Below, piece after piece: positions 10,231 to 37,333 of a stretch of DNA of 39,210 nucleotides. Both the position numbers and the translations under genes were made by a program. Source of the DNA: Nanoarchaeum sp. (lineage in GTDB: Archaea; Nanobdellota; Nanobdellia; SCGC-AAA011-G17; PNOQ01); the NCBI GenBank assembly GCA_013824915.1, contig PNOQ01000048.1, positions 1 through 39,210 on the forward strand, written 5' to 3'. Below the pieces are notes generated by a model that was not told where the DNA came from, searched no databases, and saw only the letters and a list, made by a program, of their open reading frames with translations. The number at the start of each line of letters is the position of its first letter. Position 1 is the first letter of the stretch.

Positions 10231-10302
10231 GAGGATAATAGTTCATCGGTAGAATGTTCGACTGTGGCTCGAACGAGGCGGGTTCGACTCCCGCTTATCC
10301 TC
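10231..10302 (+). tRNA. trnH: tRNA-His (GTG), copy 1, no encoded CCA
   Basis: Cloverleaf: G-1 encoded at 10231, acceptor aggataa/ttatcct, D stem gttc/gaat, anticodon stem ttcga/tcgaa with loop ctgtggc (anticodon GTG), short variable segment cgag, T arm gcggg-ttcgact-cccgc, discriminator C73 at 10302. G-1 and C73 are the universal histidine identity pair. CCA is not encoded. Bases 10236-10277 are identical to 14114-14155 in the second tRNA-His, while acceptor and T stems differ. The last 8 nt overlap the stop end of the convergent Nudix-like gene. Confidence 0.95.
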
Positions 10303-10699
10303 CTTCTTCAAAAAATCTTAATAACATTTCTTTGTGCCCAAAAGCCAATTCTAAATCTTTAATTTCTTCAATTGAAAACCATTTATACTCCGAGATATAT
10401 TTGGTATTAATAGTAATATTTCCTTTTATCTGTCCATAAAAATATAAACAAATTGTTGGCTTTTCCTCTTCGTTATAAGAATATGTAAAAAATTTAGGAT
10501 TTACAAACTCACAATTTAAATCACAGTTTACTTCCTCTTTACTCGCTTGTAATGGGTCTGAACTATACTTTTCTTTCATAATATTTAATCCACCAATAAT
10601 ACTCCAATACTCTTTGAAAGGTTCTCTCGCTCGTTTTACTAGCAAGACTTTATTATCTTTTACAATGATTGACACTACAACAATTTGTGGCGCTTCCAT
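10295..10699 (-). CDS. Nudix hydrolase-like protein with degenerate Nudix box
   Basis: 134 aa with the Nudix fold layout: strand VVVSIIVKDNKVLLVKRA (7-24), an EYWSIIGGL loop (30-38), the Nudix box region (37-60) and strands to about 115. Nudix enzymes cleave nucleoside diphosphates linked to another moiety. Here the consensus GX5EX7REUXEEXGU reads G...E...QAS-KEEVN: the paired glutamates of KEE are kept, but the conserved Arg-Glu is Gln-Ala. Catalysis may therefore be altered or lost. The TATA box TTATATAAAA on the reverse strand is about 27 nt before the ATG (leaderless). Its final codons EEGG-stop are antisense to the acceptor stem of tRNA-His 1. Confidence 0.8.
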   Translation of the reverse strand: MEAPQIVVVSIIVKDNKVLLVKRAREPFKEYWSIIGGLNIMKEKYSSDPLQASKEEVNCDLNCEFVNPKFFTYSYNEEEKPTICLYFYGQIKGNITINTKYISEYKWFSIEEIKDLELAFGHKEMLLRFFEEGG

Positions 10700-14108: not shown

Positions 14109-14183
14109 GGCGGTAATAGTTCATCGGTAGAATGTTCGACTGTGGCTCGAACGAGCTGGGTTCAACTCCCAGTTACCGCCCCA
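14109..14183 (+). tRNA. trnH: tRNA-His (GTG), copy 2, with encoded CCA
   Basis: Cloverleaf: G-1 at 14109, acceptor gcggtaa/ttaccgc, D stem gttc/gaat, anticodon loop ctgtggc (GTG), variable cgag, T arm ctggg-ttcaact-cccag, C73 at 14180, then CCA at 14181-14183. The region 14114-14155 is identical to copy 1, but acceptor and T stems differ with compensated pairs. hisS begins 40 nt after the CCA and has a Shine-Dalgarno, so tRNA and synthetase are probably on one precursor. Confidence 0.95.
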
Positions 14184-17364: not shown

Positions 17365-20300
17365 ATGGATTCTGGGAAAAGGGGGGAATATATCACATTA
17401 GTGATAGTTTTACTATTTTTATTTAGTATTCTAACTTTCTACCAAGGTAAAGTTTTGATAATATCTTCTGATTTTATGCTAGGGACCGGTCATGTCTTCA
17501 AATTAACAGATAGCCTTATAGAAAACGCTAAAACTTACAATCCATTATTAACAATTATTGACAAAGAAGAACCAAAAGAAGAACCAGTAGTAATCACAAA
17601 AGAAGAAGAAACATTATATTCGCCATTAACTTCACAAAATACTTATATTTCAATTTTAAATCCTTACCAAGATCAAATTATACTTGCTCAATCAGATTTT
17701 ACACAAGGAGCAGATTATACTTGGAGGTTAAACAATGAAATAGTAGAAACTGACAAAACTCATACTACTTTTTTAGCTCACTTCGATAATAATTTATCTT
17801 CATCAGATGGAGAGCAACCTTTAAGCTCTGTAAATCCTATATTCGAAGAAGGAAAATTTGAAGAAGGATTGTCTGGTAAATCTACTTACTCCACAACTAA
17901 TAATCTAAACGTAGATGAAGGAACAGTGGAATTTTGGTTAACTCTAAAAAAACCAATAACCGATGTAGTTTTTAATTCTAGCACTGGAGATCCAAACTTT
18001 TTAATGCATGATCAATCGTTTAGATTTTCAATAAATAACGTTCAAACGCAAATTGGATTTATTGCATATGAAGGAGATTGGAATAATTCAGCACAACTAA
18101 ACACGGGCTCTAGGACAGTTGACGTAAACCAACCAATTCATTTTGCATTTACTTACTCAAAATCAAACAATAATTCAGACGCTTACATGAACGGTTTTAA
18201 AATAGGCTCAGGAAGATATGACTTTAATTTTCCATTAAGTAGCAGCTTTACAATTGGAAATCCTAATGCAGTAATAGATGAATTCAGAGTTTACAACAAA
18301 GTTTTATCTGTAGAAGAGATAAGATTTGATTATACAAGAGGAATTACTTTCTCAGATAATGATATTTATTTTAATAAAACATTAGCAAAAGGAAATACTA
18401 TCTTAATATCTATGAATGAAGGATTTGTTTCTGATCAAAAACAAATTTTAGGCAAAAAAATAAATGTTACTTCTCCGCATGGATTCATAATAAATAATAC
18501 TGATGAAATAAACTTTAATTTCAAAACTTCATCATCATTAATCTGCGCTTATGGTGAGCATCCTGATTTATACTCAGAACTAACCTCTTTAGAAAGTTCT
18601 TCTACTACTACTCACACACTAACAATTCCAGTAACTTCCACATTAGATTACTATCCAGTTTACATTAAATGTGGCTCTGATGATTACGCTGTCTATGAAA
18701 GAATAAGAGTTCTACCTGAGATAAACAATAATTTTCCTAAGTTATCTACATTAGTGTGGGGTAATAATATTAATGTTTCTGAAGAAGAAAAACTAGAGTT
18801 TTATTCAAGATTCGATAGTTTAAGTATTTCAAAATCTAATCAAGTCCAACCTAATACACTAAGGCAAATAAGAGAATTAAATCCAGACATAATAATTCTT
18901 CCATATGTAATGGCAATTGGTTATCAGAATTTTACCAATAATTATCCTTTCTCAGATTTGATTGACAGATTAACTCCTAATATGTATCTAACAGATTTAA
19001 CTGGCGCACCAACCGCGAATCCAAGTTTCCCAAATAATGTAATAGGTAATTTATACACTGAAAATAATTTTTCAGAAACATTATCTTATCACACAAGCGA
19101 AGAAATGATTCAAGAAGGAATATGGGATGGTATATGGTATGATGTTGTAGGCTCATCACTATGGTTTTTAGTCGACTTCAGGACAGGTAATTACGTTATT
19201 CAACCTGATTTTGATATGGATAGTATTGAAGAAGATTTAGATAATTCAGCAGATTTAACAAAAGCAACCCAAATTTGGATTGATGGTATGGATAAATTAA
19301 TGGAATTAACTCGAGAAAAATCCGGAAATGATATGATTATTGTAGGTAATGGTGTAGATTATAATCACAATAATTACAATGGTAATTTATGGGAAAGAAA
19401 ATTAGAATGGTGGGAAGGTGCAGGCGATGATAATGGTGCATTAGAAACATTCATGAGATACAATGCAACTTATTCTTCAAGAAGTTTCCCCTACTTTCAA
19501 GAACAAACAAAAGCTCCGCATTTTAATTCAAACTTATTCATGAACAATTATAATTCAACAACAAATCCAACTGAACATTACAAAAGACACAGATTAGGTT
19601 TTACTGCAAGTATAATCTCAGAAATATATTATGATCCTGAAATAGCAGTAGGTTCTTCAGCCGATTTATTATGGTACGATGAATATATGGTAAATATTTA
19701 TACTTCCAAGCCAACAAATAATACTTTAGTTGATTCTGGTTATCTTGGTGAACCAATTTCAACAACAACAGAATTTGAAACTTTAGCTTGGAAAAAAGAA
19801 TTTGAAAACGGAATAGTTTATTTAAACGGAAAAGATACTTCATTAACAATTCAATTAGACAAAATATATAGATACGTAAATGGAACACAAGATAGTACAA
19901 TAAACAAAGGCGGTCTCACAACTAATTCAATAACTCTACAAGCAAATGATGGAATAATATTACTAAGAGCATTATGTTCTAATAATCCTTCAAGTGATCC
20001 AAATTGTATTGCTCTTTGTGGCGATAGTGTTTGTAGCGCAAATGAAACTTGCAGTTCTTGTTCTCAAGATTGTGGAACTTGCTCAAATGATGATAATGGA
20101 GACAATGGTGATACTGGTGATGATAGTGGTGATAGTACTACCAGTTCTGGTTCATCATACTGTGGGGATAATAGATGTAATTCCAATGAGAATTGCAATA
20201 CTTGTACTAGAGACTGTGGTTCATGTTCATCAGAAGATTCCAATACAATTTATTTAATACCTGGAGTTAATAATTTCATACAAACTTCTGGTGGCGAATA

Positions 20301-20622
20301 CGATTTAGTAATAAATGATAAACATTATACTATTACAATACAAAACATAAATCAAAATACTTTAGACATAGTTTACAATGATGATGTAAGAACTATAAAT
20401 TTTAACGGTTATGTTTTATTTACTTTAGATGACCAACCTTTAAAATTAATATACTCTTCAAATACTAACAATCAAGCAGGATTAATATTAGTTTTAGAAA
20501 AAATACCGGTTTATGGTACATATAATCCATATGAATTCACTTACTTCTGGATATACTTCATAATTTATCTTGTAGTAATATTATTATTTATTATTTTTAG
20601 AAAACATAAAGGTCATATATAA
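17365..20622 (+). CDS. large surface protein: LamG-like domain, glycoside-hydrolase-like barrel, Cys-rich repeats
   Basis: 1085 aa. N-terminal membrane helix (about 9-27) as signal anchor; concanavalin/LamG-like jelly roll (about 130-320: FLAHFDNNLSSSDGEQPLS, EGTVEFWLTL, DEFRVYNKVLSVEEI); a region (about 455-830) resembling putative glycosidases of the GHL15 type (LSTLVWGNN, NPDIIILPYVMAIGYQNF, WDGIWYDVVG); two Cys-rich repeats (about 885-905 and 930-950) of the CGD..C..NE.C..C..DCG.C kind separated by a Gly/Asp/Asn/Ser linker; and a C-terminal membrane helix (1055-1077). It likely acts on or binds glycans outside the cell. The Cys repeats are typical of DPANN surface proteins. Leaderless: atttaaacc is about 25 nt upstream of the ATG. 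Confidence 0.85.
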   Translation: MDSGKRGEYITLVIVLLFLFSILTFYQGKVLIISSDFMLGTGHVFKLTDSLIENAKTYNPLLTIIDKEEPKEEPVVITKEEETLYSPLTSQNTYISILNPYQDQIILAQSDFTQGADYTWRLNNEIVETDKTHTTFLAHFDNNLSSSDGEQPLSSVNPIFEEGKFEEGLSGKSTYSTTNNLNVDEGTVEFWLTLKKPITDVVFNSSTGDPNFLMHDQSFRFSINNVQTQIGFIAYEGDWNNSAQLNTGSRTVDVNQPIHFAFTYSKSNNNSDAYMNGFKIGSGRYDFNFPLSSSFTIGNPNAVIDEFRVYNKVLSVEEIRFDYTRGITFSDNDIYFNKTLAKGNTILISMNEGFVSDQKQILGKKINVTSPHGFIINNTDEINFNFKTSSSLICAYGEHPDLYSELTSLESSSTTTHTLTIPVTSTLDYYPVYIKCGSDDYAVYERIRVLPEINNNFPKLSTLVWGNNINVSEEEKLEFYSRFDSLSISKSNQVQPNTLRQIRELNPDIIILPYVMAIGYQNFTNNYPFSDLIDRLTPNMYLTDLTGAPTANPSFPNNVIGNLYTENNFSETLSYHTSEEMIQEGIWDGIWYDVVGSSLWFLVDFRTGNYVIQPDFDMDSIEEDLDNSADLTKATQIWIDGMDKLMELTREKSGNDMIIVGNGVDYNHNNYNGNLWERKLEWWEGAGDDNGALETFMRYNATYSSRSFPYFQEQTKAPHFNSNLFMNNYNSTTNPTEHYKRHRLGFTASIISEIYYDPEIAVGSSADLLWYDEYMVNIYTSKPTNNTLVDSGYLGEPISTTTEFETLAWKKEFENGIVYLNGKDTSLTIQLDKIYRYVNGTQDSTINKGGLTTNSITLQANDGIILLRALCSNNPSSDPNCIALCGDSVCSANETCSSCSQDCGTCSNDDNGDNGDTGDDSGDSTTSSGSSYCGDNRCNSNENCNTCTRDCGSCSSEDSNTIYLIPGVNNFIQTSGGEYDLVINDKHYTITIQNINQNTLDIVYNDDVRTINFNGYVLFTLDDQPLKLIYSSNTNNQAGLILVLEKIPVYGTYNPYEFTYFWIYFIIYLVVILLFIIFRKHKGHI

Positions 20623-25199: not shown

Positions 25200-25871
25200 C
25201 TATACTCCTTGTACGGCAGTTAGATAGTTCAAACCTCGGCCTAATAGCTGTTGTCTTAGTTGTTTTAATCCTTTGTCTTTTAAGTATTCAACTCCTTGTC
25301 TTGTTATACCTAATTCAGCACCTATTGTTTCTAAGGTTTGGTCTTCATAAAATACTTTTTTGATTACATAAGCACGTCTAATTGGTAAGCTGTCTATAAT
25401 TTCAAGTAATTCGCTTCTAAAAGCCATATATTCTGGGTTTTCAGCGTTTACATCTGTTAAAATATCATTTAAATATAAAGTTTCATCTTCACTTTCTGAA
25501 ACCACTTGATCTAATTGTTCAGCATGTCCAGTTGAGTTTATAGCAGCACGTCTTTCTTCTCTTTTTAGATGTACATTCATTCTAGGACCAATCTCTCTAA
25601 GACTGTAAGCATCAAGACTACCTCTCTCTGGATTAAATGTACCCATAGTTTTTAATAAAAACATATTACCTTCTTGAACTAAATCATCATAACCAACTAC
25701 TATCCCAGCATGAGCTGATGCAGCACGGTCTACTTTAGCTAAATTATGATTAACTAAAACATTTCTTGCTTGTACATCTCCTTGAAATGATCTTCTGCCA
25801 ATATATGTTTCTTCTAACTTAGTTAGGGGTTTGTAATTAGCAATTGCTTTTCTATAAGTTGAATTTTCCAT
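25200..25871 (-). CDS. sigma-70 family RNA polymerase sigma-factor-like protein
   Basis: 223 aa. Region 1.2: PLTKLEETYIGRRSFQGDVQ (15-34). Region 2: ARNVLVNHNLAKVDRAASAH (35-54), then the polymerase clamp-binding core YDDLVQEGNMFLLKTMGTFN (61-80) with PERGSLDAY (81-89) and the basic REIGPRMNVHLKRE. Region 3 is missing or reduced to an acidic linker (120-150). Region 4: SLPIRRAYVIKKVFYEDQ (161-178) plus a helix-turn-helix TLETIGAELGITRQGVEYLK (179-198) and KGLKQLR. In bacteria such proteins direct core polymerase to promoters. Here the surroundings are archaeal, and the gene itself has a TATA box (TTTATAAAA) about 25 nt before the ATG. Tryptophans of the -10 recognition helix are absent. It may have been co-opted as a DNA-binding regulator or for interaction with bacteria. 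Confidence 0.88.
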   Translation of the reverse strand: MENSTYRKAIANYKPLTKLEETYIGRRSFQGDVQARNVLVNHNLAKVDRAASAHAGIVVGYDDLVQEGNMFLLKTMGTFNPERGSLDAYSLREIGPRMNVHLKREERRAAINSTGHAEQLDQVVSESEDETLYLNDILTDVNAENPEYMAFRSELLEIIDSLPIRRAYVIKKVFYEDQTLETIGAELGITRQGVEYLKDKGLKQLRQQLLGRGLNYLTAVQGV

Positions 25872-25909
25872 AAGCTTTCAAACTTTCAATCTTTTATAAA
25901 CCTTCCGAT

Positions 25910-25975: not shown

Positions 25976-26290
25976 ATGGAACTTACAATATTAACAAAAT
26001 TAGGAATCGCACCAATATTATCAGAAGCGCATTTAGAAAGAATTTTCGAAAGACAAGAAGCTAGTGAGTTGGTATGGCATTATGATTTAGACTATAGAGA
26101 AATAACTACAGATAATGTAGCTAACTTACCTACAAGAGAATTAGATTTACGTGTAAGAGCAATGAATAATTTGGCAAACAAAGATCCTAATTATTTACTA
26201 ACAGATGAATTCGTTGAAAGATTTGAACTTTACAGACTTACTGTTGACGAAAGATACGCAGCTGAAAAAGGATATATCCTAAAAAAATGA
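25976..26290 (+). CDS. hypothetical protein, first gene of a four-gene operon
   Basis: 104 aa, starting at the ATG at 25976 because tttataaa (25946-25953) is 26 nt upstream; an in-frame TTG further up is rejected. Soluble, helical, with ELTILTKLGIAPILSEAHLE at the start and VDERYAAEKGYILKK at the end. Family unknown. The stop overlaps the next ATG (ATGA). The operon 25976-28165 has gaps of -4, +2 and -4 nt. It is divergent from the sigma-like gene. Confidence 0.7.
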   Translation: MELTILTKLGIAPILSEAHLERIFERQEASELVWHYDLDYREITTDNVANLPTRELDLRVRAMNNLANKDPNYLLTDEFVERFELYRLTVDERYAAEKGYILKK

Positions 26291-26516: not shown

Positions 26517-27119
26517 ATGACAAACATACTACAAACATTGGACGAAGAAATCTTAAGATATTATACTAATCTAGGAATGAAAATTCCAGAAAAAACATTG
26601 TACAGGACTACTGCAGTGGCGTCTCTTATTGGGGGGGCTGTCGGTGGATATACATCTGTTCTTGGTTCTAATGCTGTGTTATTGCCTCTTGCTCTTGGAG
26701 TTGCTAAACCGACAGCACATAATGTAACATGGAGTATTGCAGCATTAAACGGTTATTCGGATGAAGAAACCGACGGAGAAACAGCAAGTATAGATCCATT
26801 CCTTAAATTATGTAAAACAATGACTATTAATACAAGACTACCTATCTTAGCAGGAAGTATCGCTTTAGGAGTAGTATCATACAATTTATTCAATCAAGAA
26901 ACTCCAAATTTAGAAAAAGCAATTCTTTTAGGAGTTGCAGGTGTATCTTATTTCGCGTTAGCATCAGCAATGTATCTTAACGATAGAAAACCAAAATTAT
27001 TACAAAGAGATTCATTGTTAACACAAGCATATCACAAAGTAAAAGATGCTTTAACACCTCAACCTACACCAGTACCAGTTCCAGTTAGAAATTATTCAAC
27101 TTTGGAGAGTGCACTATGA
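26517..27119 (+). CDS. membrane protein with proline-rich tail
   Basis: 200 aa; four hydrophobic segments (about 32-52, 53-70, 108-124, 133-150) separated by a short acidic loop with DEETDGETASIDP (about 82-94), then a C-terminal linker PQPTPVPVPVR before a short tail. The 16-30 region PEKTLYRTTAVASLIGGAVG is Gly/Ala-rich and may be a packing helix. Family unknown. Third gene of the operon, 2 nt after the previous stop, with an ATGA overlap to the next gene. Confidence 0.7.
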   Translation: MTNILQTLDEEILRYYTNLGMKIPEKTLYRTTAVASLIGGAVGGYTSVLGSNAVLLPLALGVAKPTAHNVTWSIAALNGYSDEETDGETASIDPFLKLCKTMTINTRLPILAGSIALGVVSYNLFNQETPNLEKAILLGVAGVSYFALASAMYLNDRKPKLLQRDSLLTQAYHKVKDALTPQPTPVPVPVRNYSTLESAL

Positions 27120-28165
27120 ACCCAAATGATACAGCACAAGTACAAGAATACGTAGACAGTATTAGAAGACCAGATAGTGAATTTTTTATTAGAGTTCGAT
27201 ATTTATACAAAAATCCAGACCCGGCAGTAAGATTAACAGTCGCAGACTTATTAGCTAATTCAAATGATCCAGAAGCAAGAAAATATTTGCGTGAACTAAT
27301 GTTTGACCCAAATCGTATAGTTCGACAAAGAGCAGAAAGGTTTTTTTGGGATGATGGTTTTAATTTAGATGAATTACTTAAAGATGATCGAACTAAATTT
27401 GAAATTAAAACAGAAGATAAATCCGAATCTCAACCAAATAATCAAAGAGTGTATGGACAACAAATTAATCCTAGACGTAGAAACCGTCGTAACAAAATGA
27501 AAACTCCGAAAAAAGGTTTAGGTTTACAAGTTCCAAATGATCTTTCAGATTTTCTAATTGTTGAAGGCACAGAATATTTAGTAACTAAAGACTTTCTTTT
27601 CCCTCATAGGAATTGGACTGAGAGTCATTTCGCACTTTCTGAAAAGGGATTATATATGCCTAGAATTGATATATTCTTAGAACATTATAAACAATTTATT
27701 GCAGCCATAAATGGCCAAGGAAATTTATACGACGGTAATAGAATTAGAATAAATGATAGAGATTTAGAAGAACTTAAAAAATACAGACTAAATCATTATT
27801 TTCATCTTGATGCTATTTTTTATAATGACCTATTAATAACTGACCATAGAATTGTAAACGGAGAAATAGTTGGTAAACATAAACCACTAATAACATGTCT
27901 TGATGTCGAAGGCATGGCAGATTTTTCTATTTTAAACTCACAAGGATTACCAATCCAACTTGCAGAGCCCGCAATATATGACCCTCCAAAAGCTATGAGA
28001 TATACTGCCCCATATATTGGTGATGAGGATGAAGAAACTATTAAACCCACTGTAGGTTTGTTTTGTTCATTTGAAGATCTAAATAGTTTGTTTTGTACCG
28101 CTTCCTCAAAATCATCATTTTTAGCACAAGGCGTTCTAGGTTGTAGAAACATTAACAACACTTAA
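27116..28165 (+). CDS. hypothetical protein with N-terminal HEAT-like repeats
   Basis: 349 aa. Residues 20-80 carry two HEAT-type helical hairpins (YKNPDPAVRLTVADLLANSN and ARKYLRELMFDPNRIVRQRA). A basic linker follows (NPRRRNRRNKMKTPKKG, about 117-133), then a C-terminal alpha/beta region with no recognised domain. The basic linker could bind nucleic acid or membranes. Last gene of the operon. Its stop is followed by a TATA-like acttaaaaac for the next leaderless gene. Confidence 0.7.
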   Translation: MNPNDTAQVQEYVDSIRRPDSEFFIRVRYLYKNPDPAVRLTVADLLANSNDPEARKYLRELMFDPNRIVRQRAERFFWDDGFNLDELLKDDRTKFEIKTEDKSESQPNNQRVYGQQINPRRRNRRNKMKTPKKGLGLQVPNDLSDFLIVEGTEYLVTKDFLFPHRNWTESHFALSEKGLYMPRIDIFLEHYKQFIAAINGQGNLYDGNRIRINDRDLEELKKYRLNHYFHLDAIFYNDLLITDHRIVNGEIVGKHKPLITCLDVEGMADFSILNSQGLPIQLAEPAIYDPPKAMRYTAPYIGDEDEETIKPTVGLFCSFEDLNSLFCTASSKSSFLAQGVLGCRNINNT

Positions 28166-28427: not shown

Positions 28428-29019
28428 ATGGTAATAGAGTTTGAACAAGCAGTTAGAGAACCCAAACTAAGACAAAAGTATGTAGAAAGAGTTGATTTAG
28501 AAGGTTTTGCTCAATATGTTAAACGTGTTAAATATATTTCTAATAAAAGTCGAGCATATTCAAAAGAGTTGTATGAAACTTGTTTGATGTGTACAATATG
28601 CCCATTCGATTTAATACTATGTGGTACTAATTATCTTAAATCAAAAATTTATGTTTTTGAATCAAGTTTTGATTCAGAGTTAATTCAACAAGAAAGTGAT
28701 TTTACTAGTGCATTAGTTGATCATGAAGGAAAACATGCTACAATATTATGAAGGAAGTTGTGTTTTATCTTTATCAGAGATTCGTCAAAGATTATTAGAT
28801 TGTGAAAATCGTTTAGATGAAATAGAATCAATAGATCTTGAAAGAATTATATTAAAAGCGAAAATGGAATTCGAAGCTTACGAACATCAATTCCACAGAA
28901 TAGAATCTGGGAATAGGACTGTTAGCTCAAATTTTACAAATTATATAATAACTAAACTCTCTGATTATTCAATGGAACTTCTACTGGCAAATCGTAAACA
29001 AGAACAGTTAAAAGTTTAA
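28428..29019 (+). pseudogene. frameshifted copy of the HEGxH metallopeptidase-like family
   Basis: Frame 1 (28428-28751) encodes the family N-terminus (FEQAVREPKLRQKYVERVDL) and the HEGKHA motif (99-104), then stops after TIL. The next frame (within 28717-29019) continues the family: QYYEGSC, and near its end EFEAYEHQ matching EIEAYTRQ in the intact copies. Intact members read HEGTHAKQ or HEGKHTEQ, so the simplest repair is a 2-nt deletion (or 1-nt insertion) near 28740, giving HEGKHAxQYY. Similar copies sit at 35518, 36105 and 36683. Two separate proteins, programmed frameshifting or an assembly error are alternatives. Confidence 0.75.
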
Positions 29020-29192: not shown

Positions 29193-30449
29193 ATGGTCAC
29201 TAAGTATGATGTCTTTGAAATAATTTACAAGAATAGAACCACGATTAAACCTTCAGAGGTAGTTAAAAAACTAAACAAAGACGAACGAGAATATCATATA
29301 ATCCACAGATATATACGAGAACTCACAAAAGAAAAGCTGTTAATAAAAAATAAATTAGGTTTTCAAATAGAACTCTCAAAAAAATCAGAGCTATTATACA
29401 ATTTAATTCTGTACTGTATAAAAAATGGAATAAACTATAATCTTATTTTGGACAAAAATTTTGCACAATTTATCAATCAAGCGTTTCAAAAAGAAGATAT
29501 TAATTCTAATACTATAACTCTAAACCCCAGAACATTTAAAAAATATATTGATATCTTAGATAAATATGGTCTGGTTTTAATAATTTCTGAAAAACCACTA
29601 AGAGTTAAAATATTTTATAACATTCTTCTTAATAATTTGTTGATATACTTTGGGTATAATCATTTAAACACATTGGAAAGTTCAAAAAATTACATTTCTG
29701 AAATCAAGAAAGAGCTAGAGATTTATAGAAGACTGAGAAAAAAAGATGAACCTACATATAAAAAAATAGTAAGCTCATTCGAGATTTCCTTTGTTTACCA
29801 TAGTCTTTCATTAGAAGGGAATCCTATAACTCTGCCAGACACGATTAAAATTCTTCAAGATAAACTAATCCCAAATAATCTAAAAATAATGGATGTAGAA
29901 GAAATAAAAAATTATCAAAAAGCGATGGCCCAAATGTTAAAAGACACATACGAAAGAAAACCCCTCAGTTTACAATTAATTTTAACTTATCATAAAATTG
30001 CAATGCAACATAATTCTTCTCTTGCAGGAAGCATAAGAACTATTCCTGTACATATTAAAGGAAATCTTGATTTTAAAACAACTTCTCCAGAGAAAATTAA
30101 AGAAGAACTTGAAAACTTATTTAAAAAATATAACGAATTTATCAGAAGAAAAAATATTCCTTTGGAAGAAATATTAAACTTTGCAGTTTATTTCCATAAT
30201 GAATTTCAACACATTCATCCATTTGAAGACGGAAATAGTAGAACTACTAGATTGATTACATTCCATCTTTTACAATCCTTGGATATTCCTATACTTGATA
30301 TCCCATTTGGTTTACTAGATGAATATTTGAACTGCACAAAAGGATCTAAAAAAAGAGAAGATGAAAAGCTATATCAGAATCTCCAAAAGATAATATTATT
30401 TAATCTTAAAAAAATAAACAAAAAGTTTAATCTTTCAACTTCCTTTTGA
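29193..30449 (+). CDS. fic: Fic-family protein (putative AMPylase) with HTH-like N-terminus
   Basis: 418 aa. The N-terminal 1-60 looks like a winged helix (VFEIIYKNRTTIKPSEVVKK, then YHIIHRYIRELTKEKLLIK); the middle part is helical. The Fic domain spans about 195-405. The inhibitory-helix motif S-x3-E-G-N is at 204-210 (SLSLEGN), as in class II Fic proteins that self-inhibit. The catalytic loop is HPFEDGNSRTTR (342-353): His, acidic residue, GN and both Arg are kept, but the usual GNGR is GNSR. Fic enzymes transfer AMP or other groups to Ser/Thr/Tyr. No separate antitoxin is adjacent. Leaderless, with two 48-nt repeats just upstream, suggesting autoregulation. It overlaps the convergent gene by 23 nt. 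Confidence 0.9.
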   Translation: MVTKYDVFEIIYKNRTTIKPSEVVKKLNKDEREYHIIHRYIRELTKEKLLIKNKLGFQIELSKKSELLYNLILYCIKNGINYNLILDKNFAQFINQAFQKEDINSNTITLNPRTFKKYIDILDKYGLVLIISEKPLRVKIFYNILLNNLLIYFGYNHLNTLESSKNYISEIKKELEIYRRLRKKDEPTYKKIVSSFEISFVYHSLSLEGNPITLPDTIKILQDKLIPNNLKIMDVEEIKNYQKAMAQMLKDTYERKPLSLQLILTYHKIAMQHNSSLAGSIRTIPVHIKGNLDFKTTSPEKIKEELENLFKKYNEFIRRKNIPLEEILNFAVYFHNEFQHIHPFEDGNSRTTRLITFHLLQSLDIPILDIPFGLLDEYLNCTKGSKKREDEKLYQNLQKIILFNLKKINKKFNLSTSF

Positions 30450-30969
30450 TAGAACGTAATCTTAATTGTGAATTTATAAGATATGCCATAAAACCAACAA
30501 ATGGAGTTATACCTACTGCTAAAGCTAATCTTTTTATTGCATCTGCTTCTTCTCTAATCTCTACAATGGATTTATAATAATTTCTTACTTCATCATTATT
30601 AGCTTCCACATAAGCAATTGCTCTTTCTAAACTTGCAGCATTTTCTTTCATTGATTCTAAAACTGAATTATTAGAATTTTCTACATTTTCTTTTAACGTT
30701 GATTCTAAACCTAAACTGTCACATTCAACAATACCATCATTCGCAAGTTGATTATATCTTGATGTTATATCATTTAATCTTGTTTTTAATTCAAAATATT
30801 CTTCTACTGTCGGTGTTACATTTACTAAACTTTCAGCATTTTTTGCACGCTCATCAAACCAGAAATAAGTTGCAACTCCCAAAATACACACTGTAACTGC
30901 AACCTTGGCAAATCTATCAACTCTTCTATCATATATCGCTTCTCTTTGTTTGTATTCTTCTTTATTCAT
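30427..30969 (-). CDS. two-TM hairpin protein with coiled coil (family member 5)
   Basis: 180 aa: basic N-terminus, membrane helix (about 22-38), a helical/coiled-coil stretch (50-150; VEEYFELKTRLNDITSRYNQ, then LERAIAYVEANNDEVRNYYK), a second membrane helix (about 148-165) and a basic tail (RLRSIKRKLKD). The central region probably lies outside the cell. The same layout occurs in 31216-31719, 32671-33210 and 34946-35455. Last gene of the reverse operon that starts at 33210; 1 nt after the previous stop. Confidence 0.75.
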   Translation of the reverse strand: MNKEEYKQREAIYDRRVDRFAKVAVTVCILGVATYFWFDERAKNAESLVNVTPTVEEYFELKTRLNDITSRYNQLANDGIVECDSLGLESTLKENVENSNNSVLESMKENAASLERAIAYVEANNDEVRNYYKSIVEIREEADAIKRLALAVGITPFVGFMAYLINSQLRLRSIKRKLKD

Positions 30970-30970
30970 T

Positions 30971-31207
30971 TTATTGTGAGTTTAATCTACGTGAATAAGC
31001 ACCAAGACCAAAAACGGGCGCAAACATCCCACCTACACAAACAACATCTATTAATGCATGATTTACGTTATATTCAAAAAGTTGTTCGTGTGAATAACTT
31101 TTTGGTGGTTCTCTTGAATTATTATAAACAAAACCTGCAAATGAAGCTGCGATACATGCAGTTGCAACAACAGTTGCTATATTTTTTTTAGTATTATTTG
31201 AAATCAT
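30971..31207 (-). CDS. short two-TM protein (reduced hairpin-family member)
   Basis: 78 aa from the ATG at 31207, where GAGAATAAAA precedes the start and the upstream gene stop is 8 nt away; the longer frame from 31261 would overlap that gene. It begins MISN like the upstream gene and has a membrane helix (about 9-27), a short loop with a YSHEQLFEYN stretch, and a second helix (about 50-68). It looks like a hairpin-family member that lost its coiled coil. Part of the same operon. Confidence 0.65.
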   Translation of the reverse strand: MISNNTKKNIATVVATACIAASFAGFVYNNSREPPKSYSHEQLFEYNVNHALIDVVCVGGMFAPVFGLGAYSRRLNSQ

Positions 31208-31215
31208 TTTTATTC

Positions 31216-31719
31216 TCAAGATCTTTCTTCTTTTTTTATTTTTTTTACAAGATGAGCACAATAACCTACTCCGCCAAGAATACTTCCAATAAAAACTATT
31301 GCGCTTGCATTCACTCCTTTTTGTGCGTCTTCTTTAACTTCTACTAAACGAGCAAAATATCCTTCTACGTTAAGTACTTCTTTCATAATCTCAGATTGTG
31401 CAGTTAAATCATTTGAATAACTTTGCAATTCATCTAAAACAGCAGTATTATCCAATCCTTTAAAAAAATCATCTATGTTATGTACTCCTGACAAACTCTC
31501 AGGAAATTCAGATTGATTCTCAATTTCATTTTTTAAATGCTCAATTTTTCTTACTAATTCTTGTTTTTGAGTATATTCTCTCACTAACGGAGTTGCTTCA
31601 ACATAATTTCCAGGGCGAAACACTCTACTTTGATAAGTTAATCCAGTACACAACGAAGCAGTTGCAAACACTACTGTGGCTCCAACTGTTAATCCTAATT
31701 TATTTAAGTTTGAAATCAT
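31216..31719 (-). CDS. two-TM hairpin protein with coiled coil (family member 3)
   Basis: 167 aa. Membrane helix 1 (about 8-27); then VFRPGNYVEATPLVREYTQK (33-52), resembling the NYPE..VEAS.. segment of the 32671 and 34946 proteins; a coiled-coil region (50-135) and helix 2 (about 138-158) with a basic end KKIKKEERS. GGAGGG is about 5 nt before the ATG, which overlaps the upstream stop (ATGA). These signals show translation within an operon. Confidence 0.75.
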   Translation of the reverse strand: MISNLNKLGLTVGATVVFATASLCTGLTYQSRVFRPGNYVEATPLVREYTQKQELVRKIEHLKNEIENQSEFPESLSGVHNIDDFFKGLDNTAVLDELQSYSNDLTAQSEIMKEVLNVEGYFARLVEVKEDAQKGVNASAIVFIGSILGGVGYCAHLVKKIKKEERS

Positions 31720-32384
31720 TTTCCCTCCAATGGGTCGTGAACAATACCAAATGTATGCATTGGTTTATTTCCATAACCTGTGCAATCGATAGTATACTTG
31801 CCCCTGTATTTGCCTTGCTTAATAGTACAAGGTCTTAATAGATATGAATGTTCGCCTCTACATAAAGCACGTACTAAATGTTTTCCACCTTCTCTATCTA
31901 ACATTTTTGCTAGATTAGTTGCAATTGATTCAGAATTGGTTAACTTAGCAATTAATGGATGTCTAGAAATTTCAAAAGCTGATTGCTTCCCAGTTAAAAA
32001 ACGATAGTCTAACGTTCTATTTCTTCCATTAGTCTGATGTAATCTTGTTAATTCATTTAAATCTTGAGTTAAAAGTTCATCAGTGCTAAGCAAATCTAAG
32101 GACTTTCGTTCTTCAGTTATATGTATCAAACTTCCACCATAAAACACTGTAGTGGATGAACTAAATCCTTCTGCACGTTGAAGAAGATACTCTATACTAT
32201 CAGAAAAATCACTGTTACTAACTTTCGCATCATATAATATTCTTACAAGTTGACCAAAACTCGAAGTTTGTAAACCTTCGTATTGAATTTGTGCTTGGCA
32301 TCTATCATGACTTCCCACAAAAGTAGGATATGCAAATTCCAATCCATCACATGTTCTAAGGACCGCTCGTTGTATTCTTTCCAT
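31716..32384 (-). CDS. hypothetical protein, 222 aa
   Basis: Soluble protein, family unknown. The only Cys positions are scattered (CDGLEF, SHDRCQ, RALCRG, RPCTIK, IDCTG); a zinc site is possible but not clear. It contains HITEERKSLDLLSTDELLTQ and a beta-rich C-terminus (GKYRGKYTIDCTG). GAGGGATAAATAAAAATG precedes the start. Fully embedded in the hairpin-protein operon with short gaps and an ATGA overlap, so it is likely functionally linked to those membrane proteins. Confidence 0.7.
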   Translation of the reverse strand: MERIQRAVLRTCDGLEFAYPTFVGSHDRCQAQIQYEGLQTSSFGQLVRILYDAKVSNSDFSDSIEYLLQRAEGFSSSTTVFYGGSLIHITEERKSLDLLSTDELLTQDLNELTRLHQTNGRNRTLDYRFLTGKQSAFEISRHPLIAKLTNSESIATNLAKMLDREGGKHLVRALCRGEHSYLLRPCTIKQGKYRGKYTIDCTGYGNKPMHTFGIVHDPLEGK

Positions 32385-32386
32385 TT

Positions 32387-32668
32387 TTATTTATCCCTCA
32401 TACGATCAGTTATATCTTGAACCAAAGAATAATCTCTAGAATCAATAGTACAACTGTCTTTAGGATCCTTAACTCCAAAGGTATTAATGAGATCATTCAA
32501 CCTATAAGTATTAGTAACATTGACCAAAATTGTATGTGCAGATTCCAACTTATATAAATGATCGCCCGATTCTACTGTAGGTGAAACTATTCCAGTTGTA
32601 ACAAATCTACCTGTATTGTGCACAAGTGCTACACGTTTATTAAAATATTTCATTAAGTCAACTGTCAT
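32387..32668 (-). CDS. hypothetical protein, possibly Sm-like fold
   Basis: 93 aa. The N-terminal half (VDLMKYFNKRVALVHNTGRF, then TTGIVSPTVESGDHLYKLES) has the strand pattern of a small Sm/SH3-like barrel; the C-terminal part is acidic/helical. No membrane segment. Second gene of the reverse operon, 2 nt after the first gene's stop, with GGAG in the ribosome-binding position and the A-rich TAAATAAAAATG spacer common to this operon. Confidence 0.6.
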   Translation of the reverse strand: MTVDLMKYFNKRVALVHNTGRFVTTGIVSPTVESGDHLYKLESAHTILVNVTNTYRLNDLINTFGVKDPKDSCTIDSRDYSLVQDITDRMRDK

Positions 32669-32670
32669 TT

Positions 32671-33210
32671 TTATTTATCTCCTAATTTCGCTTTGTCTTG
32701 TTTTAATTGTTTAGAACGTTTCGCTCCGTTTATGCCATCTGCCAAAGAAAAACCAACAAGCACAGCCGATAAAAGTCCTACTATTACACTTCCTGCGTAT
32801 CTATAAAACCCATCAGTCCGAATTCTTATAAGCTCATCATTATACTGTTTTATTTCTGGCATTGCATTTAATTCTTTTGCTCTTTCTTCTAGAACAATTT
32901 TATATTGTTGTAACGTATCTAATTCTGCTTGAGTACTTTCAAAATTTCTGTTTAATAATGATTCCAACCCGGGTAATTCATAATCAACATCATACCCTAC
33001 TCTTTGGCTTTCTAATTGTTTACTTTTTTGTGTTACAATTTCTAACGTTTTGTTTACACTATTAAATTCTTGAATTACTAAAGAAGCTTCAACATGCTGT
33101 TCAGGATAATTCATTTCGTGAATTGAAGGAGTAATATTATTCCCAGACAAATATAACCCAGCTATTCCTAACACAACTCCACCAATAGCCTTGACTTTAT
33201 AATTTACCAT
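32671..33210 (-). CDS. two-TM hairpin protein with coiled coil (family member 1)
   Basis: 179 aa from the ATG at 33210; the in-frame extension to 33315 is rejected because TTTATAAAC (33235-33243) lies between. Membrane helix 1 (about 6-24), NYPEQHVEASLVIQEFNSV (34-52), coiled coil (50-90), the family hallmark LPGLESLLNRNFEST (about 79-93), a second helical stretch, membrane helix 2 (about 138-160) and a basic tail. The 34946 protein shares NYPE..VE.S, LPGLESFL..TF and AELDTLxQYK, so these two are close paralogues. First gene of the operon running to 30427. Confidence 0.8.
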   Translation of the reverse strand: MVNYKVKAIGGVVLGIAGLYLSGNNITPSIHEMNYPEQHVEASLVIQEFNSVNKTLEIVTQKSKQLESQRVGYDVDYELPGLESLLNRNFESTQAELDTLQQYKIVLEERAKELNAMPEIKQYNDELIRIRTDGFYRYAGSVIVGLLSAVLVGFSLADGINGAKRSKQLKQDKAKLGDK

Positions 33211-33262
33211 TTCACCACTGGGAACGATAAAACGTTTATAAAGGTTACCTTTTGAGTAGTAA

Positions 33263-33739
33263 TTATCTTCCTCTAAAATTATTAAAATATCTAACCCAAG
33301 GTTCAAAACTATCAAACCTTTCTATTACTACTTCTTGTGCTGGATCCCAAACCCCAGAACATGTTACTCTAACTTCTAACGCTCCATGTTTACTTGGTCT
33401 AAACGCATGATTCCAATAATGAGGAACAGAAATTTCTTTTCCAGGACCAAAATACTCCGCTTCATGACCGTGATTAATAAAAATCCCTTTTCCACTTAAC
33501 ACTTCGATATTTTCATGTACGTCTTTGTGATAATGAAAATCCGTTGGTCTTGGGAATATAATATCTATCGATAGTTCTTCAGAATTTACATCTCTGAAAA
33601 GTAATCCAGAATTTGGATCTAAAACATATCCCTCTTCCTCTGCATTTCTGACTATCATATTTAACAAAGCAGGATCACTATTAATTTGATACCATCTTTT
33701 TACTGCCCCTTCTACAATTCTATCTACAACATTAACCAT
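33263..33739 (-). CDS. cupin-domain protein
   Basis: 158 aa from the ATG at 33739, selected because TTTTTAAAC is about 25 nt upstream; an in-frame extension to 33805 overlaps that promoter. A single cupin beta barrel covers about 58-125: FHYHKDVHENIEVLSGKG (68-85) gives the HxH...E metal ligands, and SVPHYWNHAFRPSKHG (104-119) the second His. N-terminal 1-50 is helical and capped by a beta hairpin. Cupins of this size bind sugars or small acids or act as isomerases/dioxygenases; the substrate cannot be read from the sequence. It faces away from the RNA candidate at 33838. Confidence 0.8.
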   Translation of the reverse strand: MVNVVDRIVEGAVKRWYQINSDPALLNMIVRNAEEEGYVLDPNSGLLFRDVNSEELSIDIIFPRPTDFHYHKDVHENIEVLSGKGIFINHGHEAEYFGPGKEISVPHYWNHAFRPSKHGALEVRVTCSGVWDPAQEVVIERFDSFEPWVRYFNNFRGR

Positions 33740-33809
33740 AAATTCAGGAACTAAGTAGTGTTTAAAAACGTTTTTAAAATTTATTTTTAGAAAATAATAA
33801 CTCAAAATT

Positions 33810-33824
33810 ATAATTGTTCACACC
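33810..33824 (+). repeat. 15-nt motif ataattgttcacacc, copy 1
   Basis: Identical 15-mer at 34615-34629. Copy 1 lies about 7 nt upstream of a TATA-like ctataaat before the structured RNA candidate; copy 2 about 19 nt upstream of the TATA box of 34677. Confidence 0.5.
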
Positions 33825-33837
33825 GCTATACTATAAA

Positions 33838-33927
33838 TTTAGATTATTGTTAAATGAGAAGGAAATCGCTAAAAGCCGGGCGGTTCGAGAGTATCGGTTT
33901 TCGAGTGGGAGCAGATAGTTAATCTAA
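33838..33927 (+). ncRNA. candidate structured small RNA
   Basis: A 9-bp perfect terminal stem, tttagatta (33838-33846) with taatctaaa (33919-33927), encloses a segment far more GC-rich than the intergenic and coding DNA around it. Inside, aaaagccg and cggtttt can pair with one bulged G, extended by tcgct with gagtg across a 2-nt bulge. The upstream ctataaat (33831-33838) is a possible TATA box. This could be a small guide RNA; I find no convincing C/D boxes, and an ACA downstream (33932) is only loosely placed for an H/ACA RNA. A 22-codon ORF starts at 33854, but its codons are atypically GC-rich for this genome. Confidence 0.45.
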
Positions 33928-33968
33928 AATATACAAATTATTTTAAAGTAATAAGATTTTATTTCAAA

Positions 33969-34550
33969 ATGAAAATAATATTAGCTACAACTTCTTCTTA
34001 TAGACAAGAAGCCTTCAAGTCACTTAATTTAGACTTTACTTCAGAAGGAAGTGATGTTGAAGAATATTTTGATGGGAGACCAGAAAGTCCAGAAGACTTG
34101 GTAAAAGAATTATCAAAATTAAAAGCAGAAGCAGTTAGGGAAAAACATACCCAAGGAATAGTAATTGGTTTTGATTCTGTTGGATACTTTAAAGAGGAGG
34201 TATTAGAAAAACCAAAATCAAGGAAAGAAGCTTATGATAGGTTAAAAGCTTTATCTGGAAATAACCACCAATTTTATACAGGTATTTTTATGATCAATTT
34301 AGGAAGTGGAAAAACATTATCAAGAGCAGTAAAAACTGAGGTTCATATGAGGGCATTGGGTGACAAAGAGATAAATAAGTATCTTGATGAAGACCTAAAT
34401 TTTAGGACTTATGCTTTAGGTTACGACCCGTTAGGAAATTATAGCTCATCATTTGTTAAAAGAATTGAAGGAAGTTATAATAACTTAATAAGAGGAATAC
34501 CTTTGGAAGAAATTGTAGAAATGTTACACGAAATAGGATTTTCTTGGTAA
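33969..34550 (+). CDS. maf: Maf-family nucleotide pyrophosphatase
   Basis: House-cleaning enzyme that hydrolyses non-canonical or modified nucleoside triphosphates to monophosphates. 193 aa, normal length. Motifs: ATTSSYRQEAF (6-16) for substrate binding; the usual GaDT is GFDSVG (67-72); EKPKSRKEAYDRLKALSG (80-97) and FYTGI (102-106) follow; near the end EGSYNNLIRGIPLEE matches the family GS..N..GLPLE segment. The enzyme is probably active, since D69 and K81 are kept. Leaderless: ttttaaag is about 25 nt before the ATG. It stands alone between the RNA candidate and a small membrane protein. Confidence 0.9.
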   Translation: MKIILATTSSYRQEAFKSLNLDFTSEGSDVEEYFDGRPESPEDLVKELSKLKAEAVREKHTQGIVIGFDSVGYFKEEVLEKPKSRKEAYDRLKALSGNNHQFYTGIFMINLGSGKTLSRAVKTEVHMRALGDKEINKYLDEDLNFRTYALGYDPLGNYSSSFVKRIEGSYNNLIRGIPLEEIVEMLHEIGFSW

Positions 34551-34614
34551 GAGCATTAAATGTAATAGATTCATTATAAGACCGCATGTTTTCTAAAAAG
34601 TTTACCTTTCATAC

Positions 34615-34629
34615 ATAATTGTTCACACC
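34615..34629 (+). repeat. 15-nt motif ataattgttcacacc, copy 2
   Basis: Exact copy of 33810-33824, upstream of the TATA box (tatttaaat, 34648-34656) of the 34677 gene. The two copies are about 0.8 kb apart in the same orientation. Confidence 0.5.
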
Positions 34630-34676
34630 AATTAATTCTAAGTTAATTATTTAAATCAAGGATTCTTTTCTATAAA

Positions 34677-34940
34677 ATGAAATACGCTAAATACTGCAAA
34701 GACAATCCCCATAACTACTGGTTTAAACGTAAACTGTATGGTTGGGGTTGGGTTCCTGTAAAATGGCAAGGCTGGGCAGTAACGCTAATATTAATTATTA
34801 TTCTTACTTTTATAGCTGAAACTTTTTTGATTAAAGGAAAATTAATAGAATATTTTATTTCTTTGATACTTGCTATAGCTATTCTAATTTATATAGCGTA
34901 TAAAAAAGGCGAAAAACCCAAATGGAGTTGGGGAGAATAA
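34677..34940 (+). CDS. small two-TM membrane protein, 87 aa
   Basis: Pattern YWFKRKLYGWGWVPVKWQGW (14-33) followed by two membrane helices (about 34-50 and 58-72) and KKGEKPKWSWG at the end. This is a widespread uncharacterised small membrane protein type seen in many small-genome bacteria and archaea, with conserved aromatic ends at the membrane boundary. tatttaaat is about 25 nt before the ATG; leaderless. It faces the convergent 34946 gene 5 nt away. Confidence 0.8.
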   Translation: MKYAKYCKDNPHNYWFKRKLYGWGWVPVKWQGWAVTLILIIILTFIAETFLIKGKLIEYFISLILAIAILIYIAYKKGEKPKWSWGE

Positions 34941-34945
34941 AAATT

Positions 34946-35455
34946 CTATCTACTCAATGATGTTCTTTTATTGATACCATACATTAAATAACCGACAAAT
35001 ACACCAACAGAAAGACCAAATCCTACCATGCCCACATAAGATCCTCTTCGTCCTTCATCTTCAACTTTTTTAATATTCGCAGAATACGCTCTAACTGCAG
35101 GCAATGTATTTAAATAGTCTACTTCTTTGTGTAATTCTATTTTATACTGTCCTAAAGTGTCTAATTCTGCTGGGCTAATACTATCAAACGTTCTACTCAA
35201 AAATGATTCCAATCCTGGCAAACTATAACTAACTTGAGACGTGTTTCTTTCACTAATAGCTTGATTATACTTTTGAGTTACAGTTTCTAATGCTCTTTCT
35301 GCATTCTCAGCTATATCAACAAATGGACTAGATTCAACATATTTTTCAGGATAATTACTCTTATCTATGGAATTCACCATATGTTTCGTAGAGAAAAATA
35401 ATCCTGTAGCTGCAGCCAATCCAACCATTGCTAGTTTAGTTCTGTATTTTACCAT
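34946..35455 (-). CDS. two-TM hairpin protein with coiled coil (family member 2, isolated copy)
   Basis: 169 aa, close paralogue of the 32671-33210 protein. Membrane helix 1 (about 8-22), SNYPEKYVESSPFVD (33-47), coiled coil, LPGLESFLSRTFDS (79-92), AELDTLGQYK (96-105), membrane helix 2 (about 140-160). GGAG is about 9 nt before the ATG and the TATA box at 35488-35495 is shared with the divergent zincin-like gene, so it has a short leader. Placed outside the main operon but still in the same block of paralogues. Confidence 0.8.
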   Translation of the reverse strand: MVKYRTKLAMVGLAAATGLFFSTKHMVNSIDKSNYPEKYVESSPFVDIAENAERALETVTQKYNQAISERNTSQVSYSLPGLESFLSRTFDSISPAELDTLGQYKIELHKEVDYLNTLPAVRAYSANIKKVEDEGRRGSYVGMVGFGLSVGVFVGYLMYGINKRTSLSR

Positions 35456-35517: not shown

Positions 35518-36111
35518 ATGGTAACTTTCGAAGAAGCAAGAAGAGAACCTAAACTAAGACAGTCATATATTGAACAAGTCGATTTAGGTGAATTTGCTCC
35601 TTATATTCAAGATGTTTGTTATGTGTCTTCTCGCAATGTCAATAAATCTGATAAAGGATTTGTCATGTATATTCTTGGAAGTCGAAGAGCTGTATTAGGT
35701 ATTCCTGGAACAAAACCAACAATTTATGTTCTTCCATGTGCGTTTAAAAGAAATAGCAAGGTTATAACCACAGAAGATGATTTTATCAGTGTGCTTAAAT
35801 ATCATGAAGGAACTCACGCAAAACAAAATTTTAAAGGTACCCCTACCGAGCTTGGTGCAACTGCTAGATATATTAAACAATACGGACTAGTTGAATGTAT
35901 ATTTTTTATGAATAGGCAATTTTACGAAGATGGACTCCTTTTATTTTCATCAAGAGAACAGGAAATCGAAGCATATACAAGGCAATTAACTGCTCATTCT
36001 TCCGGTGAAGCACCAATAAGCCCGACACTTGAATCTTTTGTAAAAGGTAGATTTAAAAGATATTTAGGTGTTCCACAAACTATACCTCTAGAAATTTATG
36101 CACCATGGTAA
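35518..36111 (+). CDS. putative HExxH metallopeptidase-like protein, tandem copy 1
   Basis: 197 aa; family unnamed to me. N-terminal block FEEARREPKLRQSYIEQVDL, a beta region, then KYHEGTHAKQNF (94-105) with HEGTH (96-100) fitting the zinc-binding HExxH. EIEAYTRQ (149-156) offers a downstream Glu as third ligand, as in gluzincins. The HEXXHxxQ...EAxxxQ spacing resembles several short zincin families. No signal peptide, so it is cytosolic as read. The stop overlaps the next ATG by 7 nt (ccATGGTAA), the same junction as between copies 2 and 3. Leaderless promoter tttataaa is 26 nt upstream. Confidence 0.75.
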   Translation: MVTFEEARREPKLRQSYIEQVDLGEFAPYIQDVCYVSSRNVNKSDKGFVMYILGSRRAVLGIPGTKPTIYVLPCAFKRNSKVITTEDDFISVLKYHEGTHAKQNFKGTPTELGATARYIKQYGLVECIFFMNRQFYEDGLLLFSSREQEIEAYTRQLTAHSSGEAPISPTLESFVKGRFKRYLGVPQTIPLEIYAPW

Positions 36112-36689
36112 CTTTCGAACAAGCAAGAAGAGAACCTGAACTAAGACAATCCTATACTGAACAAGTCGATTTAGGTGAATTTGCAAAATATGTAAAAGAT
36201 GTTATATATACACCACCTCGTTCTGAAACTAGTCAGACAACTTTTATGAGCACATGTAGAAATCGAATAAATGCTATTTTTAATATTCCTACTACAAAAT
36301 CAACAATTTTGGTTTTTCCATTTGCTTTTGAAAACAGTAAGATAACCACAGAAAGCGATTTTATTAACTGTCTTAAATATCATGAAGGAACTCACGCAAA
36401 ACAAAATTTTAAAGCTAGCCCTACTGAGTTTGGTGCATCTGCTCGATATATTAAACAATATGGATTAACCGATTTTATACACCATATAGATCGTGAATTT
36501 GACAAAGATGTGCCTCTTAAATTTTCAAAGAGGGAAAAAGAAATTGAAGCATACGCAAGACAATTAACCGCGCATTCTTCTGGTGAAGCACCAATAAGCC
36601 AGTCATATGAATTATCTGTAAGGGGAATGTTAGCTTATTATTCAGGTATTCCTCAAATTAGAATTTTGGAAATTTTTTCACCATGGTAA
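36105..36689 (+). CDS. putative HExxH metallopeptidase-like protein, tandem copy 2
   Basis: 194 aa, highly similar to copy 1 over the N-terminal 25 and the HEGTHAKQNFK region (HEGTH 93-97; EIEAYARQ 146-153), but divergent over residues 35-75, where insert and loop residues differ. It ends in FSPW like copy 1 (YAPW). Start codon within the stop of copy 1, so translation is coupled. The closely matching DNA around the motif indicates recent duplication, with faster change in the variable segment, which might bind targets. Confidence 0.75.
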   Translation: MVTFEQARREPELRQSYTEQVDLGEFAKYVKDVIYTPPRSETSQTTFMSTCRNRINAIFNIPTTKSTILVFPFAFENSKITTESDFINCLKYHEGTHAKQNFKASPTEFGASARYIKQYGLTDFIHHIDREFDKDVPLKFSKREKEIEAYARQLTAHSSGEAPISQSYELSVRGMLAYYSGIPQIRILEIFSPW

Positions 36690-37333
36690 CTTTCGAACAA
36701 GCAAGAAGAGAACCTAAACTAAGACAATCCTATTTAGAACAAATTGATTTTCGAGAGTTTACTCCTTATGTTGAAACTATTTTGTATTTAGAAAAATATG
36801 ATCCAAAAAAAGATAATTCAAAACATCTTGGATACTTCGAATCCGATTTCTCTCATTACGACTCAATTTCGGCGCGTACAGAAGTTTCTGACGAAATGGC
36901 TAGTGATTTAGTTGGGCGTAAAAGCAGAATAACAGTTTATGGCGCACTTTTTGATTTCGCTAAAACAGAAGATGACTTTCTTTCTGGTGTTGTATATCAT
37001 GAAGGAAAACACACAGAACAATTATTTTTTGGGAGTTTTACACCAAGTACTAAATTAATACCTGCTTATATGTCAAGATACCCTAAACCATTATGGAAAC
37101 ATATATTTATTTGTAATGAAGCACGTAACCAAGTAATTAAAATGGACAGGGACGCTTATAATTTTCAATTAAAAATGGCAAAAGAAGTTCAAACTAATGT
37201 ATCTAGAAAAATATTGCGAGATATAAAACGTTCATGTAAATATTGGAATTCCCAAAAACTAATTCCCTTTGATAACTTTCCTGCTGGACTAGAAACGCTT
37301 TTAAATCTATATCCTAAAAACCAACTTTTATAA
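36683..37333 (+). CDS. putative HExxH metallopeptidase-like protein, divergent tandem copy 3
   Basis: 216 aa. The N-terminal block FEQARREPKLRQSYLEQIDF is nearly as in copies 1 and 2, but the rest is divergent: HEGKH (106-110) retained, the downstream motif is DRDAYNFQ (155-162) in place of EIEAYTRQ, so the Glu ligand may be Asp, and the C-terminus has a different basic helical extension. Start codon overlaps the stop of copy 2 by 7 nt. The stop codon lies within the TATA box of the next gene. Confidence 0.75.
   Translation: MVTFEQARREPKLRQSYLEQIDFREFTPYVETILYLEKYDPKKDNSKHLGYFESDFSHYDSISARTEVSDEMASDLVGRKSRITVYGALFDFAKTEDDFLSGVVYHEGKHTEQLFFGSFTPSTKLIPAYMSRYPKPLWKHIFICNEARNQVIKMDRDAYNFQLKMAKEVQTNVSRKILRDIKRSCKYWNSQKLIPFDNFPAGLETLLNLYPKNQLL

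Follow-up and report, generated by a model that had tools for sequence, protein, structure and literature searches.

A diverged sigma-70-type gene resident in an archaeal genome, with a possible role as a DNA-binding regulator

The window, by which we mean the whole 39,210-nucleotide stretch of DNA analysed, carries on its minus strand at 25200..25871 a sigma-70-like gene with an intact open reading frame of 223 amino acids. The coordinates agree with those of an earlier note on this DNA, from which the strand was absent. With Pfam profiles, sigma region 2 (Sigma70_r2, PF04542) was matched at residues 39-107 (25551..25757, minus strand) with 29.2 bits (E 8e-7, cut-off 24), and sigma region 4 with its helix-turn-helix (Sigma70_r4, PF04545) at residues 159-207 (25251..25397, minus strand) with 39.4 bits (E 4e-10, cut-off 24.1). 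Both regions, which had been proposed by eye, were thus significant and over the curated cut-offs, and the NCBIfam model of the sigma70-ECF superfamily (TIGR02937) was also matched (61.1 bits, cut-off 42.9). However, the description of the protein as a full-length sigma factor had to be dropped, as regions 3.0-3.1 are missing and region 1.2 had no Pfam match at E <= 0.1. Helices resembling region 1.2 were placed at residues 5-38 (25758..25859, minus strand) by pairwise alignments with RpoS, which begin at residue 5-12. The alignment also located an intact region 2.2 clamp-docking motif, DDLVQEGN, at residues 62-69 (25665..25688, minus strand), and an acidic linker resembling the sigma 3.2 finger at residues 120-140 (25452..25514, minus strand), N-terminal of which regions 3.0-3.1 are absent.

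An AlphaFold model of the protein had a mean pLDDT of 86, with residues 120-129 below 50. When this model was searched with Foldseek, sigma-S and sigma-A chains were retrieved with a probability of 1.0 (E 1.7e-8); the TM score reached only some 0.4, as the window sigma has its two domains in a different arrangement. The best solved relatives in the PDB were RpoS chains. The sigma identity of the gene is real and far beyond chance. PHROG 351 was the top profile for the protein (86 bits), and in one search the highest-scoring individual sequence came from a viral contig (66.7 bits). An origin from a virus or plasmid was not adopted, as the identities over most of the length were about 31% or below and the surroundings of the sigma gene showed no recognisable viral hallmark gene. 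Membership of the MZA defence system was rejected as well, since the MzaA NCBIfam model gave 31 bits against a cut-off of 800 and the part in common was the region-2 motif only.

Residues were numbered and aligned by E. coli RpoD. The motifs YDDLVQEGN and FNPERGS, highlighted in the earlier note, were both present, and D403, L404, Q406, E407, G408 and N409 of region 2.2 were all kept letter for letter. The loss of region 3 was correct for regions 3.0-3.1, with a gap at RpoD positions 450-458 and no Pfam match for region 3, but the acidic stretch LDQVVSESEDETLYLNDILTD, which resembles the 3.2 finger (residues 120-140), remains. Likewise, the aromatic residues that act on the -10 element were lost in part: W433 is replaced by R, W434 by E and F427 by L, whereas F419 and Y430 are kept. 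Q437 is replaced by P. The remark that this aromatic loss counts against normal promoter melting was right. Of the four main -35 contacts tested in region 4.2, only R584 survives, with E585 changed to Q, R588 to E and Q589 to Y, so that DNA binding by the window sigma, if there is any, would be of an altered kind only. The identity, the fold and the missing residues of the protein are shown; judged by its residues, the protein looks able to dock on a polymerase clamp but not to melt DNA or to read a standard -35 element.

Transcription with sigma factors in bacteria and with TBP and TFB in archaea is a textbook divide between the two domains. The gene lies in a genome (G000) of 0.83 Mb in 57 contigs, with a completeness of 90% and a contamination of 1.5%, in which both TBP and TFB are encoded. 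The size of the genome, its kin and the literature suggest a DPANN archaeon of the Woesearchaeota/Pacearchaeota kind. Archaeal versions of both the 23S rRNA and the RNase P RNA are encoded on the window contig, the base composition of which is even outside the rRNA. A search for PF04997 gave a single match in this genome, the archaeal Rpo1', and exactly one per genome in the 30 related genomes searched, this one included; no second large polymerase subunit and no bacterial core polymerase was found by this search in the 90% complete genome. Most window genes that have a gap upstream show a TATA-type hexamer about 28-30 bases before the start codon. The sigma gene is one of them, and its TATA box TTTATAAA (25893..25900, minus strand) starts 29 bases upstream of the ATG, at the leaderless distance that had been noticed earlier. 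The composition of the gene is native (GC 0.33 and GC3 0.14, compared with medians of 0.316 and 0.181). The -35/-10 consensus occurred at chance around the gene (99 found versus 94.7 +/- 9.3 expected from shuffled sequence), and transcription of the gene is probably best explained by an ordinary promoter of the TBP/TFB kind. The contig thus proved archaeal, as the earlier note had said on several counts, and not bacterial or chimeric; with the significant profile matches, a bacterial-type sigma-70 gene is resident in an archaeal genome. Two further observations were made on the contig. A 342-amino-acid frame at 7185-8213 (minus strand), porin-like to the eye and without a Pfam match, has a signal-peptide-like start (STPGFAQ), a GGAG upstream of its start codon and no TATA at -30. 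Two tRNA-His (GTG) genes were found at 10232-10303 and 14110-14183, the second immediately upstream of the histidyl-tRNA synthetase gene.

Divergently from the sigma gene lies a gene for a protein of 104 amino acids and unknown function (25976..26290, plus strand) with its own TATA box, and a gene for a HEAT-repeat protein lies at 27116..28165 on the same strand; a surface protein of 1085 amino acids with a laminin-G-like domain is encoded at 17365..20622 (plus strand), and its homologue in the same-genus genome G001 is 60% identical. In G001 the sigma gene is flanked by homologues of this surface protein on one side and of the HEAT-repeat protein on the other. Homologues of ScpA, the surface protein and the HEAT-repeat protein lie close to sigma genes elsewhere in the family, in two other genomes. 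Regulation of the neighbouring genes for surface proteins by the sigma protein is a weak suggestion, as the neighbours have ordinary TATA promoters and -35/-10 sites are at chance level. No anti-sigma domain was found in the subset of flanking proteins scanned. Elsewhere in the window, a Fic-domain protein (29193-30449; Pfam 60 bits) matched the defence-linked models PDC-S04 and SoFic and has a distant relative near a pair of sigma genes on another contig, C10. Four paralogues beginning MVTFEQARREP... (35518-37333 and 28428-28751) share an HEGxH-like motif, had no Pfam match in the two that were scanned and are possibly small metallopeptidases. Several small proteins encoded at 30427-35455 have a helical middle between membrane-spanning ends, and at least two of them are paralogues (32671-33210 and 34946-35455, 40% identical).

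The pair of sigma genes on C10 (G000:C10:18357-20024; L001 1366-3033) is arranged in tandem and encodes proteins of 282 and 270 amino acids, fuller than the window gene. The 282-amino-acid protein, the first of the pair (C10:18357-19205), keeps the FASYASSW and TRERVR-type motifs and would be the better candidate for functional work. C10 belongs to the same lineage as the window contig: identities of 75-88% link several genes beside this pair with genes that lie around the sigma gene in a same-genus genome. The sigma proteins themselves are only 41% identical; therefore, the sigma evolves fast. Sigma region 2 was present in 50 of the 103 genomes of the order and in 128 of the 371 genomes sampled from the phylum, and no close orthologue of the window sigma was found among those 103. 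The surprise value given to the gene in the earlier note was therefore overstated, as sigma-70 genes are frequent in the phylum and a 2021 paper had already described them (PMC8204110). Other orders of the class have very large sigmas, up to a 1741-amino-acid frame, with regions 1.2, 2, 3 and 4 over cut-off. That frame (L208, G201:C5, 2315-7540) carries a complete sigma-70 at its C terminus behind a long N-terminal part without a Pfam match; a 740-amino-acid sigma (L221, G136:C3, 5780-8002) likewise has an N-terminal part without a Pfam match, and a weak extra helix-turn-helix match behind region 4.

In a quick tree, the family-f1 sigmas from three genomes formed a clade with a support of 98, and this sigma family has therefore been inherited for some time. 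The archaeal sigmas were clustered (12 changes versus 29.7 in shuffles), a result that does not establish a single archaeal group. The window sigma had a branch of 1.92 changes per column, no supported neighbour and no stable place, and the tree resolved no donor lineage for it. Homologues were either less than 60% identical or exact duplicates, leaving no pairs close enough for dN/dS. The sigma genes of a Bacteroidales MAG (L098) group with the archaeal ones; it was rejected as archaeal and counted as bacterial because TFB is absent. In five genomes (G044, G054, G060, G049 and G023; L067, L069, L072, L073 and L074) the sigma genes stand near genes for ribosomal protein S10/EF-1A or peptidyl-tRNA hydrolase, and such conserved places in some families suggest a long residence. 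A TATA-like hexamer starting at -36 to -24 was found for 36 of 64 archaeal sigma genes, compared with 6/64 and 10/64 in control windows, and therefore many of these genes are evidently read by TBP/TFB. The window gene is best explained as a fast-evolving third paralogue in a sigma-70 family that came from bacteria and is now native to a DPANN-type archaeal phylum.

We compared the residues that contact the clamp with those that contact the -35 element over the family. In the archaeal relatives the -35 triad (E585, R588, Q589) was kept in 156 of 177 cells (88%) and the clamp triad (Q406, E407, N409) in 113 of 185 (61%), a contrast with p = 2e-9, a value not to be taken literally since the sequences are related. 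All six residues were nearly invariant in 33 bacterial sigmas found by HMM score, a set that leans to primary sigmas. Q406 was kept in 29 of 62 relatives and replaced by S in 16, and the melting residues W433, W434 and Q437 were kept in 39, 43 and 41 of 61, respectively. That the -35 triad is better kept than the clamp triad points to the reading of DNA as the common function. The window sigma reverses the pattern of its relatives, with the clamp motif intact and the -35 contacts replaced. On the side of the polymerase, R275, E295 and A302 of E. coli beta' correspond to I, L and H in the clamp of the archaeal Rpo1'. In E. coli, any one of the substitutions R275Q, E295K and A302D impairs the formation of the holoenzyme (PMC8321222). 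The archaeal I, L and H are present in both sigma-bearing and sigma-free genomes, and no difference was found between the two groups in the clamp coiled coil.

For the whole family we favour sigma-derived DNA-binding regulators that act in the archaeal cell, because the DNA contacts are among the best-kept traits, the clamp contacts are loosened and a bacterial polymerase is absent. For the window protein our leading reading, held tentatively and at somewhat less than an even chance, is that it is a diverged member of this kind and does not serve a bacterial polymerase in initiation. Both the sigma-2 and the sigma-4 fold are retained in the protein together with the short acidic linker, whereas sigma-3, the aromatic pair for melting and most -35 contacts have been lost. 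We infer that it binds DNA and acts inside the archaeal cell, where it would read DNA through an altered sigma-4 helix-turn-helix while sigma-2 might touch the polymerase clamp. With a changed recognition helix it would read another site, or would mainly interfere with its paralogues or with the polymerase. Against this, the replacement of the -35 contacts means that DNA binding via region 4 is not assured, and the analysis yielded neither a target site nor a regulated gene.

The same losses suit a duplicated, no longer functional paralogue that is drifting while its frame is still unbroken, and so do the very long branch, the lack of a stable tree position and the two fuller paralogues in the same genome. 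We regard such a leftover as unlikely, though as the strongest competitor, since the frame of 223 codons is intact and is preceded by a TATA box of its own at a suitable distance, the scores of both domains still exceed the curated cut-offs, and DDLVQEGN is unchanged where fewer than half of the relatives keep Q406. The intact docking motif next to lost DNA contacts is also the strongest point for a protein that blocks a polymerase, perhaps that of a bacterial partner; delivered there, it would dock on the polymerase and, unable to melt DNA or to read -35 elements, would block it. The cell has no bacterial polymerase of its own to be served, and murein transglycosylase domains, one of them in a 2057-amino-acid frame, are encoded in the genome; proteins of this type have been taken as a hint of bacterial hosts (PMC8204110). 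However, no secretion signal was seen in the window sigma, and across the relatives it is the contacts to the bacterial clamp that are conserved less well, the opposite of what an effector predicts. The co-occurrence of transglycosylases was rejected as a sign of bacterial hosts, as sigma and transglycosylase were not associated over 103 genomes (31/50 versus 29/53, p = 0.55). We consider delivery to a partner improbable.

Quite improbable, too, is a chimeric holoenzyme in which sigma proteins and the archaeal polymerase initiate together at bacterial-type promoters. The many relatives that keep the whole sigma machinery, and the change of Q406 to S, as if a clamp contact had been re-tuned, speak for it; the clamp coiled coil that is alike with and without sigma genes, the chance level of -35/-10 sites among TATA promoters and the absence of melting residues from the window protein speak against it. 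We also weighed, as rather improbable, the broader alternative that the archaeal sigmas act on the polymerase of a bacterial partner, the window protein being a cross-domain blocker, or that the fuller paralogues are used in a chimeric holoenzyme with the window protein as its antagonist in the cell. An artefact of assembly or binning, for which the fragmentation into 57 contigs, the incompleteness and the low contamination could be cited, has a negligible chance. Contamination or a chimera is countered by the archaeal RNAs on the contig of the sigma gene itself, the even base composition outside the rRNA, the archaeal promoters throughout, the single Rpo1', TBP and the homologues of window-contig genes in two related genomes, and mis-binning was also excluded in other genomes by a published check (PMC8204110).

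Roughly one in three of the genomes sampled from the phylum thus has sigma genes that were kept and multiplied, under archaeal promoters and without a bacterial polymerase, which implies that the sigma can do without its polymerase, can partner a foreign one or works in a different cell. With the bacterial clamp residues absent from Rpo1', and with a contrast between DNA and clamp contacts that is reversed in the window sigma, the question becomes one of simple binding experiments.

Among known systems, RpoS (group 2) gave the top single matches to the window sigma (NCBIfam 76.5 bits, PDB 64 bits) and shares with it the clamp motif and the order of regions 2 and 4 behind a 1.2-like stretch. 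However, the window sigma is far under the RpoS cut-off of 378.7 bits, region 3 is absent, and the melting and -35 residues are changed. ECF sigmas (group 4) are similar in that sigma-2 and sigma-4 are joined by a linker and TIGR02937 is over its cut-off, whereas the window sigma keeps a 1.2-like N terminus, an acidic linker like region 3.2 and a clamp motif of the RpoD type, and no anti-sigma gene was recognised among the window neighbours scanned. Complete bacterial-like sigma factors were reportedly found in archaeal single-cell genomes by Rinke and colleagues in Nature in 2013; in comparison with those, the window sigma is incomplete. The closest likeness is to the sigma-70 genes of DPANN archaea (fam00359), most of them in Woesearchaeota, for which mis-binning was ruled out and anti-sigma factors were lacking (Castelle et al. 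2021, PMC8204110). There, as here, a bacterial-type sigma-70 resides in a small archaeal genome with archaeal factors and without a bacterial polymerase. Compared by description, the window member differs in that sigma-3 is gone, as are the W-W pair and most -35 contacts; most of the relatives examined keep these features. As far as we found, the test of TATA promoters at sigma genes, the comparison of the Rpo1' clamp and the contrast between -35 and clamp residues are new additions to what has been described for this family.
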